Shown here: one piece after another, positions 22,389-27,731 of the stretch
How the letters are laid out: each line of letters begins with the position of its first letter
Numbering within the stretch: position 1 is the first letter of the stretch
NCBI GenBank assembly: GCA_040880805.1
Contig: JBBDHW010000037.1
Span: 1-45,359, forward strand
Direction: 5' to 3'
DNA: 45,359 nucleotides
Source of the DNA: Acidimicrobiia bacterium
GTDB taxonomy: Bacteria; Actinomycetota; Acidimicrobiia; IMCC26256; DASPTH01
The notes under the pieces: model-generated
The model's database searches: none
The model's input: the letters and a program-made list of their open reading frames with translations, nothing else
What the model was told of the DNA's origin: nothing
Program-made: the position numbers and the translations under genes

Positions 22389-22952
22389 ATGAGCACCGAC
22401 GAGTCGCTGGTCCTCCCTTCCTACGTCGATTGGCCGCTCTTCCCCTTCGAGGGCGAGCTGCGGGTCAAGCCGCCGACCCAGCTCGACGCCGATCGCGTGC
22501 GCAGCGGCGAGCCTGGTGGACCACCTTGTGGCTCATGTCCGGCGGACGACGACGCCTTCATCTGGGTCGACGACCGGTGGCGCCTGTTCGCCCGGGAGGA
22601 GCCGCCCTCGGTACCAGTGCTCGTGATCCTCGAGACGAGGGCGCACGTCGACCTGGACGGGCTCGACGGTGAGCTCGCAGCCGAGCTGGGCCCGATGATG
22701 ATGCGGCTCGACCGAGCGATCCGTGCGGTCGGCAACGTCGGTCGGGTGCACGTGCACCGCTGGGGAGACGGGGCCGAGCACTTCCACATCTGGTTCTACG
22801 GCCGGCCGGTCGGCTCCATGAACATGCTCGGTTTCGGGATGCCCCTGTGGGAGCCGATCCTGCCGCGGATTACCGAGCCCGAGTGGCGCGCCAACCTGGT
22901 GACCGTCGCGCAGGCTCTCGCCACCGACGGGGGACGCGCGGTCGTCGGCTAG
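22389..22952 (+). CDS. HIT-like protein of unknown function
   Basis: A 187-residue protein. Its best motif is RVHVHRWGDGAEHFHIWFYGRP, where alternating His/hydrophobic residues (H-F-H-I-W) resemble the active-site strand of HIT-superfamily nucleotide hydrolases or transferases, though the classical H-x-H-x-H is not exact. A Cys pair (GGPPCGSCPADDD, residues ~44-51) and LPLWEPILPRITEPEW-like C-terminal blocks are also notable; proteins like this occur in actinobacteria as unannotated genes. ATG 22389 gives the natural start. It diverges from the GH3 gene and ends overlapping the stop of the convergent synthetase in a CTAG. Confidence 0.6.
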   Translation: MSTDESLVLPSYVDWPLFPFEGELRVKPPTQLDADRVRSGEPGGPPCGSCPADDDAFIWVDDRWRLFAREEPPSVPVLVILETRAHVDLDGLDGELAAELGPMMMRLDRAIRAVGNVGRVHVHRWGDGAEHFHIWFYGRPVGSMNMLGFGMPLWEPILPRITEPEWRANLVTVAQALATDGGRAVVG

Positions 22953-24499
22953 CGCGCGTAGCGGTCGCGCAGTTCCTGCTTCCTGATCTTGCCCATCGGG
23001 TTGCGCGGGACCTCGTCGACGAGCTCGAGCTGCTCGGGGATCTTCTGGGTGGCGAGTCCCACCGAACGGCAGTGCTCGGCGATGTCGGCGAGGGTCAATC
23101 TGCCGACGCCCTCCTCGAGTTGGACGACGGCGCAGCATCGCTCGCCCGTCCTCGGGTCCGGCACACCGATGACGGCGACGTCGAGGATCTTGGGGTGCCC
23201 GTGGAGCACGTCCTCCACTTCCGTTGCCGAGATGTTCTCGGCGTTGCGGATGACGACGTCTTTCAGGCGACCGGTGATCTTCACGTGGCCCGACGGGAGC
23301 ACCATGCCGAGGTCGCCGGTGCGGAAGAAGCCCTGGTCGTCGAAGGCGTCCTTCATGAGGTCGGAATTCGCGTAGCCGCAGAAGAGCTGTGGCCCGTTCA
23401 GGCACAGCTCCCCGGCTTCGCCCGACCCGCACTCGCTGCCGTCGGGGCGAATCACCCGGATCTGCGCTCCGGGTGACGGTCGTCCCTCCGTGGTGCTCAG
23501 CTGCTCGTCGGTATCGTCCAGCGACGGCGCGGTTGCGATGGGGAACTCGGTGAGTCCCCAGCTCGAGCAGACCCCGCGTCCGCCCAGCACCTCCTGGACC
23601 TCTCGATGCAGCTCGGGCGAGTTGGGCGCGCCGCCGCCGCTGCAAGTACGCAGGCGCGGGAACAGCCGCTCCGGGCCGTGCTTGCGCTGCGCGGCCATGT
23701 ACGCGTGGAAGAACGGGATCGCGCTCCCGAGGAGAGTCGCGCCGTGCTCGGCCATCACGAGCGGGCTGCGCTCGGGGTCGAAGACGTCGATCGTCACGAT
23801 GCGGAAGCCGGTGAGCAGCGACGCGGTGACGATCGCCATGCCGCCGATGTGCGCCATCGGGAACGCAACGGGAAGGACGTCGTCGGGTGTGGTCGAGTAG
23901 CCCGCGACGAACCCGTACGAGCCCGCCATCACCGACGCGTCGGTGTGCCACACGCCCTTCGGGTCGGCGGTGGATCCCGACGTGTGGTACAGCCACCGTG
24001 CCGGCAGCGACACGGCGTCCGGATACGACGGCGGGGGTGGCAGTGTCGACGGGTCGCCCCTCGGCAACTCATGGTCGGAGTCGAGGATCTCGAAGCCGTG
24101 CGATTCGGCGATCGTTTCGAGCATCGCCCGATGATCGAAGCCCCGGAACGTGGCGGGTGCGATGACGAGGTCGGGCTTCGCCTCACCGGTGATGTAGGTG
24201 ACCTCGCGCTCGCGCATGATCGGGATGATCGGGTTCTGCACCGCGTCGAGGCGCCCGAGTGCGGCCATGAGCACCACCGCCCCGATCGTGGTAGGTATCT
24301 GCCAGCTCACGACCGATCCCGACGTGATCCCGCGCGCAAACAGCGCAGCCGCGACGCCAACCGCTGTGTCCCGGTACTCGCCGAACGTCATCGAACGGCC
24401 GAGGTCGTCCTCGAGCATCACCGCGTCGGGTGTGCGCGCGGCACGCTGCTCGACGACGCCCCACAGCGTGACGGGGTGTTCGGGGATCGCTTCCTGCAT
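22949..24499 (-). CDS. AMP-binding acyl-CoA synthetase
   Basis: A 516-residue ANL-family ligase: P-loop LYHTSGSTADPKGVWH, CSSWGLTEFP (A5-type motif), FFRTGDLGMVLPSGH, GRLKDVVIRNAENISATEVE, and PRNPMGKIRKQEL with the catalytic Lys near the C-terminus. It lacks obvious substrate hints. ATG 24499 begins the conserved N-terminus and lies four bases after the enoyl-CoA hydratase stop, making it the last gene of the UGSC operon. It presumably activates the acid that enters the pathway. Confidence 0.92.
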   Translation of the reverse strand: MQEAIPEHPVTLWGVVEQRAARTPDAVMLEDDLGRSMTFGEYRDTAVGVAAALFARGITSGSVVSWQIPTTIGAVVLMAALGRLDAVQNPIIPIMREREVTYITGEAKPDLVIAPATFRGFDHRAMLETIAESHGFEILDSDHELPRGDPSTLPPPPSYPDAVSLPARWLYHTSGSTADPKGVWHTDASVMAGSYGFVAGYSTTPDDVLPVAFPMAHIGGMAIVTASLLTGFRIVTIDVFDPERSPLVMAEHGATLLGSAIPFFHAYMAAQRKHGPERLFPRLRTCSGGGAPNSPELHREVQEVLGGRGVCSSWGLTEFPIATAPSLDDTDEQLSTTEGRPSPGAQIRVIRPDGSECGSGEAGELCLNGPQLFCGYANSDLMKDAFDDQGFFRTGDLGMVLPSGHVKITGRLKDVVIRNAENISATEVEDVLHGHPKILDVAVIGVPDPRTGERCCAVVQLEEGVGRLTLADIAEHCRSVGLATQKIPEQLELVDEVPRNPMGKIRKQELRDRYAR

Positions 24500-24503
24500 C
24501 AGC

Positions 24504-25307
24504 TCAAGAGGTCTTGTCGAGCTGTGCGGCGACGCGGTCACGCGCGTTCGGGAGTTGCAGCAGCCGCGAGAACTCCTGGCCTTCGAGCTCACGGGCGCGC
24601 AGGATCCCCTCGCGCTCGGCGTCGAGCACGAGCCGCTTCGTGGCCATCAGCGACGGCAGCGGGTGCTCCGCGATGCGAGACGCCAGCTCCACCGCCTCGG
24701 CGACGAGGCGGTCGGCCGGACACACCTTCACCGCGAGGCCGCACGCGACGGCCTCCTCGGGTTGGATCCAGTCCGAGGTGAACAGCGCGAGCGCAGCGCG
24801 CTGTCGGCCCGCTCGACGAGGAAGGAGATAGCTGCTCGCGGCTTCCGGCGCGACACCCATCCGCGTGAACGGCGCGCGCAGCCGCGCGTTCTCCGACACG
24901 AGCACGAGGTCGCAGTGCAGCAGCATCGTGAACCCGATGCCGACGGCCGCGCCGTTCACCGCGGCGATCACCGGCTTGGGGAAGGACGAGAGCGCGTTGA
25001 CGAAGGCATCGAAGCCGCGGCTCATCGAACTCGCCTCCGCCGGACGCTGCGGCGTCGCGGCCAGCTGTCCCTCCTCGGGTATTACGGCCGTCATCTCCGT
25101 GATGTCGACGCCGCCGCTGAACACACGCCCTGCGCCGGTGAACACCACCACACTCACCGACTCGTCGGCCTCTGCTTCTCTGAGCGCGACCGCGGCGGCG
25201 TGGTACAGCCGTTCGTTGAACGCGTTCGCCTTGTCCGGGCGATTCAACGTGAGCACGCGCACGAGCTCGATGTTCTCGATCAGGAGCAGGTCAGGAGTGT
25301 CGGGCAC
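24504..25307 (-). CDS. Enoyl-CoA hydratase/isomerase (crotonase) family protein
   Basis: A 267-residue crotonase: VRVLTLNRPDKANAFNERL, the oxyanion-hole FSGGVDITEM (first) and PVIAAVNGAAVGIGFTMLLHCD (second), and LRAPFTRMGVAPEAASSYLLPR, where Glu in the usual catalytic position is followed by Ala-Ala-Ser-Ser. It binds acyl-CoA substrates and may hydrate, isomerise or hydrolyse them. Start GTG 25307, nine bases after the companion gene's stop. It lies between the companion protein and the acyl-CoA synthetase, so it should act on the same CoA-linked intermediate. Confidence 0.92.
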   Translation of the reverse strand: MPDTPDLLLIENIELVRVLTLNRPDKANAFNERLYHAAAVALREAEADESVSVVVFTGAGRVFSGGVDITEMTAVIPEEGQLAATPQRPAEASSMSRGFDAFVNALSSFPKPVIAAVNGAAVGIGFTMLLHCDLVLVSENARLRAPFTRMGVAPEAASSYLLPRRAGRQRAALALFTSDWIQPEEAVACGLAVKVCPADRLVAEAVELASRIAEHPLPSLMATKRLVLDAEREGILRARELEGQEFSRLLQLPNARDRVAAQLDKTS

Positions 25308-25316
25308 GGCGGGAAT

Positions 25317-26393
25317 TTACCGGGGGAAGAAGTCGTCGGCCCAGGCCACTTTCTGGTGTGCGAGCTCGCTGTCTCCCCAGCTCGGGAGCACGACGGCGTG
25401 CAGGCTGGCGAGCCCTCCGCACACGATCACCACGAACTGGTCGGGGCGCTCGTTGAGAAACACACGACCGGTCTCGTCGATGCGACCTTTCTGCTCGAGC
25501 ACGGCGCGGTTCGGCTCGGGCCAGAGGTCGATCGGCTGCCACGCGTGCTCGAAGAGGTAGGTCTGGAGGTCTTCGATGTTCGGGAAGGCCCGGGCGAAGC
25601 GCTGGGCCCACTCGGGGTTCACCGCGATCACCGTCTGCCCGTTGCCGGCGGTGGGCGTGAGGAACTTGTTCGACAGCGGGAACGCCGCGCTCTTCGCGAC
25701 GAGACGGAGGAGGTCGCGCGGGTCGTCGTTGTTGATGTCGGCGATCGCGTGGGTTCCCTTTGCTGCGTGCACCGTGACGACGTCGTCGTCGCGCGAGTAG
25801 CCCCACTGCTCCGCGAGTGACGGCCACGGCGACTGCTCGTCCCATTCGCCGAAGCACACGCCGAGCCGCCCCGGCTGCCCGAACACGCTCTTCGACGTCG
25901 CGCCGGGCGTCGGACCGACCGTCTGCCCGCCGATGTTGCGCAGACACAGCGACACCGCGCGCCCGATCGTCATCGAGCCGCGTCCGGCGGCGCCGCCCAT
26001 GCAGCCGTTCTGGTAGTCGATGCCCACCCGGTCGCGCGACGGTCCGTTGACGATGAGGTACGGGAACACACTCGACGTGGTGGTGGTGATCCCCTCGAGG
26101 TTGAACGGCGGCTCGCACATGGCCTCGAGCGCAGCGATCACGTAGGGCATCCCCCAGGCTTCACAACCGGCCATGGCAGCGTTGACCGCGGCGAGCTCCA
26201 CCGTCGCCTCGCGGTTCATCGGCGGGAGGATCCCGATGACGTCGTCGGTGTGGAACGGTGTGGACGCGAGGATGCCGCGCACGCGACGTTCCGTAGGCGG
26301 GAGGAGCGGCAGGCCGTCGCCCCATCCGGCTTCCAACGAGAGCTCGTAGAGCGCGACGGGGTCTTCGTCGATCCTGATCCGGTCACTGACCAA
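25317..26393 (-). CDS. Conserved companion protein of the UGSC selenoprotein, unknown function
   Basis: A ~358-residue protein starting with LYELSLEAGWGDGLPLLPPT. Other striking blocks are GILPPMNREATVELAAVNAA, MAGCEAWGMPYVIAA, NGCMGGAAGRGSMTIGRAV, SLCLRNIGGQTVGP, GRLGVCFGEWDEQSPWPSL and ERPDQFVVIVCGG. Several Cys (about six) and glycine-rich loops suggest a metal, flavin or thiol site, but I do not recognise the fold. No ATG or GTG fits; TTG 26393, overlapping the UGSC stop by eleven bases, is proposed. The long upstream frame to 26897 is a shadow of the UGSC gene. Its tight link to UGSC suggests the two work as one enzyme. Confidence 0.7.
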   Translation of the reverse strand: MVSDRIRIDEDPVALYELSLEAGWGDGLPLLPPTERRVRGILASTPFHTDDVIGILPPMNREATVELAAVNAAMAGCEAWGMPYVIAALEAMCEPPFNLEGITTTTSSVFPYLIVNGPSRDRVGIDYQNGCMGGAAGRGSMTIGRAVSLCLRNIGGQTVGPTPGATSKSVFGQPGRLGVCFGEWDEQSPWPSLAEQWGYSRDDDVVTVHAAKGTHAIADINNDDPRDLLRLVAKSAAFPLSNKFLTPTAGNGQTVIAVNPEWAQRFARAFPNIEDLQTYLFEHAWQPIDLWPEPNRAVLEQKGRIDETGRVFLNERPDQFVVIVCGGLASLHAVVLPSWGDSELAHQKVAWADDFFPR

Positions 26394-26949
26394 CGGGTCG
26401 ATCAGGCACCCCGAGGGTCCGCAGGAGTCTTGGGTACGCGTCTGCAGCAATCTGGCGCACTTCCTCGTCGGGACGACCTTCGAGAGGGTAGGGCAGCACG
26501 AGCACGCGCAGGCTCGGGTGACCGTTGTGCGCGGCCATCCGGTGCGCGAACGCCTCGAACTCCTCGGTGACGACGACGACCGCCGGCTTCTCGAGCCGCT
26601 CCACGGCCATGGTGTCGTGGACACTCCACGACGTGCACGATCCTCAGTTGCCGAGGCCGACGACGCCGCAGTCCACGAGGCGCGACCACTCCTCGACATC
26701 CGAGCGGGTCTGCTCACCCTGTGGACCGGCGCGATCGCCTGCCCAGAGCACGCGCACGACGGCACCGTCGCGCCGCAACAGGTCTTCCCAGACCTCGATG
26801 ACGGAGAAATAGGAGCGCCAGGAGCGATCGGTACGGAGGCCGACGGCCACTCCGTCGAGCGGACGATCGAGGGACCAGGTCTCGGACGTGTCGCCACCCG
26901 CGTCGGGCGCGGTCGGGGCGAGGATCTCGACCTGGCGCGCTTCGTCCAT
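26383..26949 (-). CDS. UGSC-family selenoprotein with UGA-encoded selenocysteine
   Basis: Reading through TGA 26646-26644 joins two half frames into a 188-residue protein. The N-terminal part (VAVGLRTDRSWRSYFSVIEVW, VDCGVVGLGN) ends at the UGA and the next residues are G-S-C, giving GLGN-U-G-S-C-TSWSVHD, the motif that names the UGSC (seleno)protein family. The C-terminal part continues with PAVVVVTEEFEAFAHRMA and LRVLVLPYPLEGRPDEEV, also typical. U102-x-x-C105 is a selenenyl-sulfide-type redox motif. The start ATG 26949 overlaps the SDR stop (TGATG). Conventional calling would give two orphan fragments. An eight-pair hairpin begins 11 bases after the UGA. The family's reaction is not known to me. 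Confidence 0.92.
26614..26632 (-). promoter_or_regulatory. Bacterial SECIS hairpin of the UGSC gene
   Basis: On the minus strand GTCGTGGA-GTG-TCCACGAC makes eight perfect pairs closed by a three-base loop starting with GU. The loop begins 19 bases after the UGA. The same architecture (perfect stem, 3-base GU-initial loop) occurs after the UGA of the SelW-like gene, supporting a shared SelB recognition rule. Confidence 0.8.
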
Positions 26950-27731
26950 CAGTCCGGGATTCCACTCATTCCGGGGCCGCCGTCGACGCTGAACGTCTGA
27001 CCGCTGACGTACGACGCGGCGTCACTCACCAGGAACAGCATCGCATAGGCGACCTCGACCGGCGCGCCGGTGCGTCCGAGTGGGATGCCCTGCACCATCG
27101 CCTGTTGGTCGAGACGCGCGACCTCCCACGCGTCGAGCGCCCGCTCCGACGCGACGAGGCCGACCGCCACGCAGTTCGCCCGGATGCCGTAGCGACCCCA
27201 CTCGGCGGCGGTGACCCTCGTGAACATCTGGAGACCTGCCTTGGCTGACGCGTAATGCGCGCCACCCTTCACGCCGGTGACTCCAGCTCCCGACGACACG
27301 TTGACGATCGCGCCCGATCGTTGCGCGATCATCTGCCGACCGGCTTCGCGCGTGCAGAGGTACGCGCCCCGCAGGTTGAGACCGACGGCGCTGTCGAACG
27401 CCCTCGTGGGGAGATCCTCGAGGCGACCGAGGCGCGTACCCCCGGCGTTGTTGACGAGGATGTCGACCTTCCCGAGCTCCTCGATCGTGCGCTCGACGAG
27501 CCGCACGACCTGGTCCTCCTCCTTGACATCCGTCGGGACGGGAACGCACCGCCGCCCGGTGGTGCTCTCGACCTCGGCGGCCACGCGCTCGAGCTCGGCG
27601 ACGGTGCGGCTGGCGACGACGACCTCTGCCCCGTGCTCGGCGAAGAGGCGCGCGGTGGCGGCACCGATTCCGGTTCCACCGCCGGTGACGATCGCCACGC
27701 GATCGGTGAGGCTGAACTGCTCCAGGGACAT
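26949..27731 (-). CDS. Short-chain dehydrogenase/reductase (SDR)
   Basis: A 260-residue classical SDR: nucleotide loop VTGGGTGIGAATARLFAEHG, LVNNAGG, catalytic Ser in IVNVSSGAG, and the Y-x-x-x-K in HYASAKAGLQMF; C-terminal VSGQTFSVDGGPG. The Arg in VVASRTVAEL after strand 2 favours NADP(H). It should oxidise or reduce an alcohol/carbonyl, possibly a hydroxyacyl-CoA given its neighbours. It is the first gene of the UGSC operon and overlaps the UGSC gene by one base (TGATG), so the selenoprotein is translated right behind it. Confidence 0.94.
   Translation of the reverse strand: MSLEQFSLTDRVAIVTGGGTGIGAATARLFAEHGAEVVVASRTVAELERVAAEVESTTGRRCVPVPTDVKEEDQVVRLVERTIEELGKVDILVNNAGGTRLGRLEDLPTRAFDSAVGLNLRGAYLCTREAGRQMIAQRSGAIVNVSSGAGVTGVKGGAHYASAKAGLQMFTRVTAAEWGRYGIRANCVAVGLVASERALDAWEVARLDQQAMVQGIPLGRTGAPVEVAYAMLFLVSDAASYVSGQTFSVDGGPGMSGIPD

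Follow-up and report, generated by a model that had tools for sequence, protein, structure and literature searches.

The UGSC proteins are a family of selenoproteins on record at least since the Global Ocean Sampling survey of 2008 (PMC2398784), in which a thioredoxin-like reading of the UxxC motif was suggested and a UGSC/Unknown_1 fusion was described. The family is also modelled in Pfam (PF24696) and NCBIfam (NF041046). The gene studied here is carried by a stretch of 45,359 nucleotides from an Acidimicrobiia bacterium, which is called the window. A preliminary description, made from the sequence alone, presented it as a hidden selenoprotein gene. Since both databases already model the family and the 2008 survey had published it, the novelty implied by that word is overstated, and the window gene is a new member of an already known family.

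The UGSC gene runs on the minus strand from an ATG at 26949 to a TGA stop at 26385-26383 (Table 1). The single interruption of this frame is the in-frame TGA at 26646-26644 (codon 102), and the codons directly 3' of it, GGA TCG TGC, encode Gly-Ser-Cys, which places the UGSC motif at residues 102-105. The upstream fragment, 101 aa long, was present as an open reading frame in the program-made list. Coordinates, frame and motif are as claimed in the preliminary description, where a TGA followed by Gly-Ser-Cys was proposed to separate two same-frame fragments of one protein.

Table 1: Features of the UGSC locus (positions of the window).
Feature	Position	Strand	Description	Basis
Acyl-CoA ligase-like (AMP-binding) gene, downstream	22949..24592	minus	Pfam PF00501; overlaps the hydratase gene	
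Enoyl-CoA hydratase-like gene, downstream	24504..25307	minus	Pfam PF00378; 9 nt past the partner gene	
Partner gene	25317..26393	minus	358 aa from TTG 26393 (inferred start); 11 nt overlap with the UGSC gene	
UGSC-family selenoprotein gene	26383..26949	minus	188 residues, Sec codon 102, own stop TGA	Translation with TGA as U, Pfam, alignments
SECIS-like hairpin	26614..26632	minus	GTG loop on a stem of 8 bp; starts 11 nt 3' of the TGA	Sequence, 21 UGA homologues
In-frame TGA, probable Sec codon	26644..26646	minus		U or C in the aligned homologues
Short-chain dehydrogenase gene, upstream	26949..27731	minus	Pfam PF13561; its TGA stop overlaps the UGSC ATG by 1 nt	

Read through the UGA, the protein matched PF24696 over residues 8-180 with 111.2 bits (E 7.6e-32), the curated cut-off of the model being 25 bits. 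When the fragments were searched alone, the downstream one scored 77 bits and the upstream one 14 bits, with each alignment covering the corresponding part of the profile, which indicates that both sides of the TGA belong to one domain; the proposal that the two fragments are one protein was supported. The match to NF041046 (83.2 bits, E 1.8e-23) fell under the strict equivalog cut-off of 125, so that the joined translation is a UGSC family member by Pfam, is not an equivalog by the NF041046 cut-off, and represents a divergent member. Its identity was 51% to the closest homologue (L009) and 21-31% to 15 of the 16 other aligned members.

Among 396 genomes of the same phylum, UGSC was found above the Pfam cut-off in 27, with 44 matches in total, most of them with exactly one in-frame TGA. 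Frame and residues are kept past the TGA in the homologues, in agreement with the conservation that had been proposed for both sides, and in full-length homologues the TGA column is occupied by either U or C, Cys being present in four of those aligned (L022, L038, L041, and L042). In a diverse alignment of 17 UGSC sequences the only invariant columns were U/C 102, Cys 105, and Gly 143. The uninterrupted profile across the TGA and the recurrence of one TGA at this motif among many homologues of the phylum argue that TGA 102 is not there by chance.

The perfect eight-pair hairpin claimed to start 11 bases past the TGA is present in the sequence as GTCGTGGA / GTG / TCCACGAC, with eight Watson-Crick pairs and its onset 11 nt after the TGA. 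Given the protein, the window hairpin alone is mildly improbable under synonymous recoding (P about 0.03), and the fold energy of the whole 48-nt region gave a P of about 0.13; this thermodynamic test of a single gene was not discriminating, and counts of pairing and covariation were used in its place. Over 21 UGA homologues the stem was paired in 92.7% of cells, and 0 of 500 shuffles were as high, counts that serve as a guide and not as a probability because the related UGA sequences are not independent. The hairpin was kept in 20 of the 21 UGA genes tested. Stem pair 21/27 was C-G in 16 of them, G-C in 5, and broken in none; the swap tracks a Cys/Trp difference in the protein, and the third base of a later Val/Leu codon changes and keeps the pair. 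The loop-side Ser codon was AGT in 18 of the 21 UGA genes versus 0 of 4 Cys genes, and pairing in the Cys homologues reached only 37.5% of cells, the hairpin being lost in these genes. No hairpin was present at the same offset from the UGA in L046 (motif UDGC), and the closest homologue, L009, keeps the UGA with only 5 of the 8 stem pairs. It is the conservation and covariation across relatives, rather than the window gene alone, that makes the hairpin convincing, and with its compensatory change it is a conserved, putative SECIS-like element.

The preliminary description proposed looking for selA, selB, selC, and selD in the same genome, whose assembly has 3.49 Mb in 69 contigs and is 95.4% complete. 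Three of these were found above cut-offs: selB (303.6 bits, cut-off 242) adjacent to selA (479 bits) on contig C17, and selD (406 bits) on contig C24. The fourth, selC, was not found in this incomplete assembly with Rfam, with two patterns, or with a model built from relatives; the Rfam candidates were ordinary tRNAs, and the other searches gave ordinary tRNAs or non-tRNA matches. A tRNA-Sec was present in 23 of 25 UGSC-bearing genomes checked, and in the two that lacked it (G150 and G102) all UGSC matches are without an in-frame stop. As a separate observation, the tRNA-Sec gene of two genomes (G123 and G313) is located upstream of the partner-UGSC pair, at a distance of about 450 nt and in divergent orientation (L079:1876-3988 and L078:7138-9234).

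Two other readings of codon 102 were weighed. The TGA, which is a stop in the standard code, could be a genuine one, and the gene a pseudogene cut by a nonsense mutation into two dead fragments, a reading to which the missing selC of the incomplete assembly also lends itself. However, the occurrence of one TGA at this motif across many other genomes, the conserved frame, residues, and hairpin 3' of it, and the presence of selA, selB, and selD all speak against it, and the sequence conservation makes it very unlikely. Even more improbable, to the point of being negligible, is a reassignment of TGA to another residue such as Trp or Gly with no Sec machinery involved: the UGSC gene and the upstream dehydrogenase gene both terminate at TGA, the aligned homologues without TGA carry Cys and never Trp or Gly, and genes of the Sec machinery are in the genome, even if the frame is indeed open once TGA is taken as a sense codon. 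The window gene is, with high confidence, a UGA-decoded UGSC selenoprotein, a confidence which covers its identity and excludes its enzymatic role. At the sequence level this identity is strongly supported by the frame, the motif, the conservation, the hairpin, and selA, selB, and selD, and Sec would be incorporated at codon 102.

Next in the locus is the partner gene, which overlaps the UGSC gene at the 3' end of the latter. Its product had no family match in the copies of Pfam and NCBIfam searched, and homologues adjoin UGSC in nearly all loci examined; the partner is a conserved family of about 350 aa, unnamed and without a model in those copies, which could receive one. In a profile search it was found in 28 of the 396 genomes, including all 27 with UGSC (Fisher P 5e-41, overstated because the genomes are related). 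For 40 of the 44 UGSC matches it lies no more than 300 nt away and in the same orientation, with the partner first in 30 and UGSC first in 10, and its invariant features include DGLP, PPT, AG, and GG. Both proteins are fused in one 583-aa frame in G136 (L047:1447-3195), where the motif has degenerated to MGTS and the Sec/Cys site is lost, so the partner there seems to need no Sec site. The predicted structure of the partner (pLDDT 37) was too low for use, and no relatives of it were found in viral contigs. The source genome also has a second UGA-containing UGSC gene (L019, G000:C22:124144-124659) with the motif GGUGSC and its own partner gene at C22:124770-125684. Elsewhere, one contig of a genome without a UGSC match (G183:C272) has four partner-family matches, and a partner-family gene at G362:C226:1437-2414 has one in-frame TGA, possibly Sec or a sequencing error.

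The genes at both sides of the pair were also considered. The upstream dehydrogenase and the UGSC gene probably belong to the same transcription unit, and the arrangement of dehydrogenase, UGSC, partner, hydratase, and ligase hints at a CoA-thioester pathway. Acyl-CoA genes recur near UGSC in both the window and L085. No wider conserved operon was seen around UGSC, the neighbours varying among genomes.

An AlphaFold2 model of the UGSC protein, obtained with a two-sequence alignment (pLDDT 80, pTM 0.76), is built of five strands that alternate with helices, and Sec sits in the turn that leads from strand 3 into the next helix. Its Foldseek matches in the PDB include flavodiiron, MdaB, ArsH, and WrbA structures (TM about 0.45-0.50), and a flavodoxin-like alpha/beta fold, not a thioredoxin-like one, is predicted. 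Sequence searches of the PDB with the UGSC and partner profiles found no relative, and a viral structure library gave only weak generic alpha/beta matches. In profile comparisons with hhalign, controlled with column-shuffled profiles, UGSC aligned to GrdB-like proteins in their C-terminal Sec region (P 2.3e-4, probability 44%, score 36 against a shuffle maximum of 22) and to stand-alone UPxC-type proteins (P 2e-5, probability 77%, score 40.4 against 19.2), the Sec column falling onto the Sec column in both alignments. Between the UPxC-type and the GrdB-like proteins themselves, homology is clear (99.8% hhalign probability over 222 columns). These comparisons suggest that UGSC may be distantly related to the C-terminal domain, which bears the Sec, of selenoprotein B of glycine and proline reductases. 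PF07355 had no match in the window UGSC protein at E 10 and none in its own genome. A PF09338 second-subunit gene adjoins the GrdB-like gene in the 4 of 4 loci checked; a homology of the partner to this GrdE/PrdA type was tried and rejected (profile comparison probability 0.16%).

A rival reading, in which UGSC would be a thioredoxin-like UxxC thiol oxidoreductase, as the 2008 survey (PMC2398784) suggested for the family, and would be unrelated to the selenoprotein B reductases, agrees with the UxxC motif itself. It is nevertheless improbable, by a smaller degree than the two readings of the TGA above: the predicted order of strands and helices, with Sec past strand three, is not that of thioredoxin, and the profile match to the C-terminal domain of selenoprotein B points elsewhere. 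Flavodoxin-like domains are among the best PDB matches and thioredoxin is in none of the top 50, which argues against a thioredoxin-like fold.

By homology, SelB with Sec-tRNA would bind the hairpin just past UGA 102 and insert Sec, and the product would be 188 residues long and contain the motif Sec-Gly-Ser-Cys. We infer an enzymatic function for it: with a probability that we place a little below even, UGSC could be a redox subunit working with the partner of about 350 aa. The selenol may attack the substrate, or may be oxidised, forming a selenenyl-sulfide with the Cys of the motif that would afterwards be re-reduced, a chemistry likened by analogy to that of selenoprotein B; for the window operon, possible substrates are a small organic acid or an intermediate of a CoA-thioester pathway. 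More tentatively still, UGSC and its partner might be a previously undescribed two-subunit selenoenzyme for Sec-dependent reduction or C-X bond cleavage, with a Sec domain distantly related to selenoprotein B and an unrelated second subunit. Concrete, testable leads on this functionally uncharacterised family come from the near-obligate partner, the predicted flavodoxin-like fold, and the putative, remote kinship with selenoprotein B.

By comparison with the UGSC family as modelled in PF24696 and NF041046, the window protein shares the full-length Pfam match, the UGSC motif, the UGA codon, the SECIS-like hairpin, and the size, whereas it is divergent and its gene precedes, rather than follows, that of the partner. 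The stand-alone UPxC-type proteins (L122-L142, PF07355 positions ~200-347) are related to GrdB over its C-terminal half, carry an in-frame UGA in their motif, and occur in many genomes of the phylum; they have Sec at the same strand-turn-helix position as UGSC, but the motif is UPxC (ULTC in L125) and not UGSC. With respect to selenoprotein B of glycine/sarcosine/betaine/proline reductase (GrdB/PrdB, PF07355), UGSC differs in having no PF07355 match and no N-terminal part of about 345 residues, and in a partner that is not PF09338, while both share a strand, the U-G-S/T-x-T motif, a later HP/P region, a helix that in most members ends in LE..GIP, and a second subunit, putative in the case of UGSC, encoded alongside.
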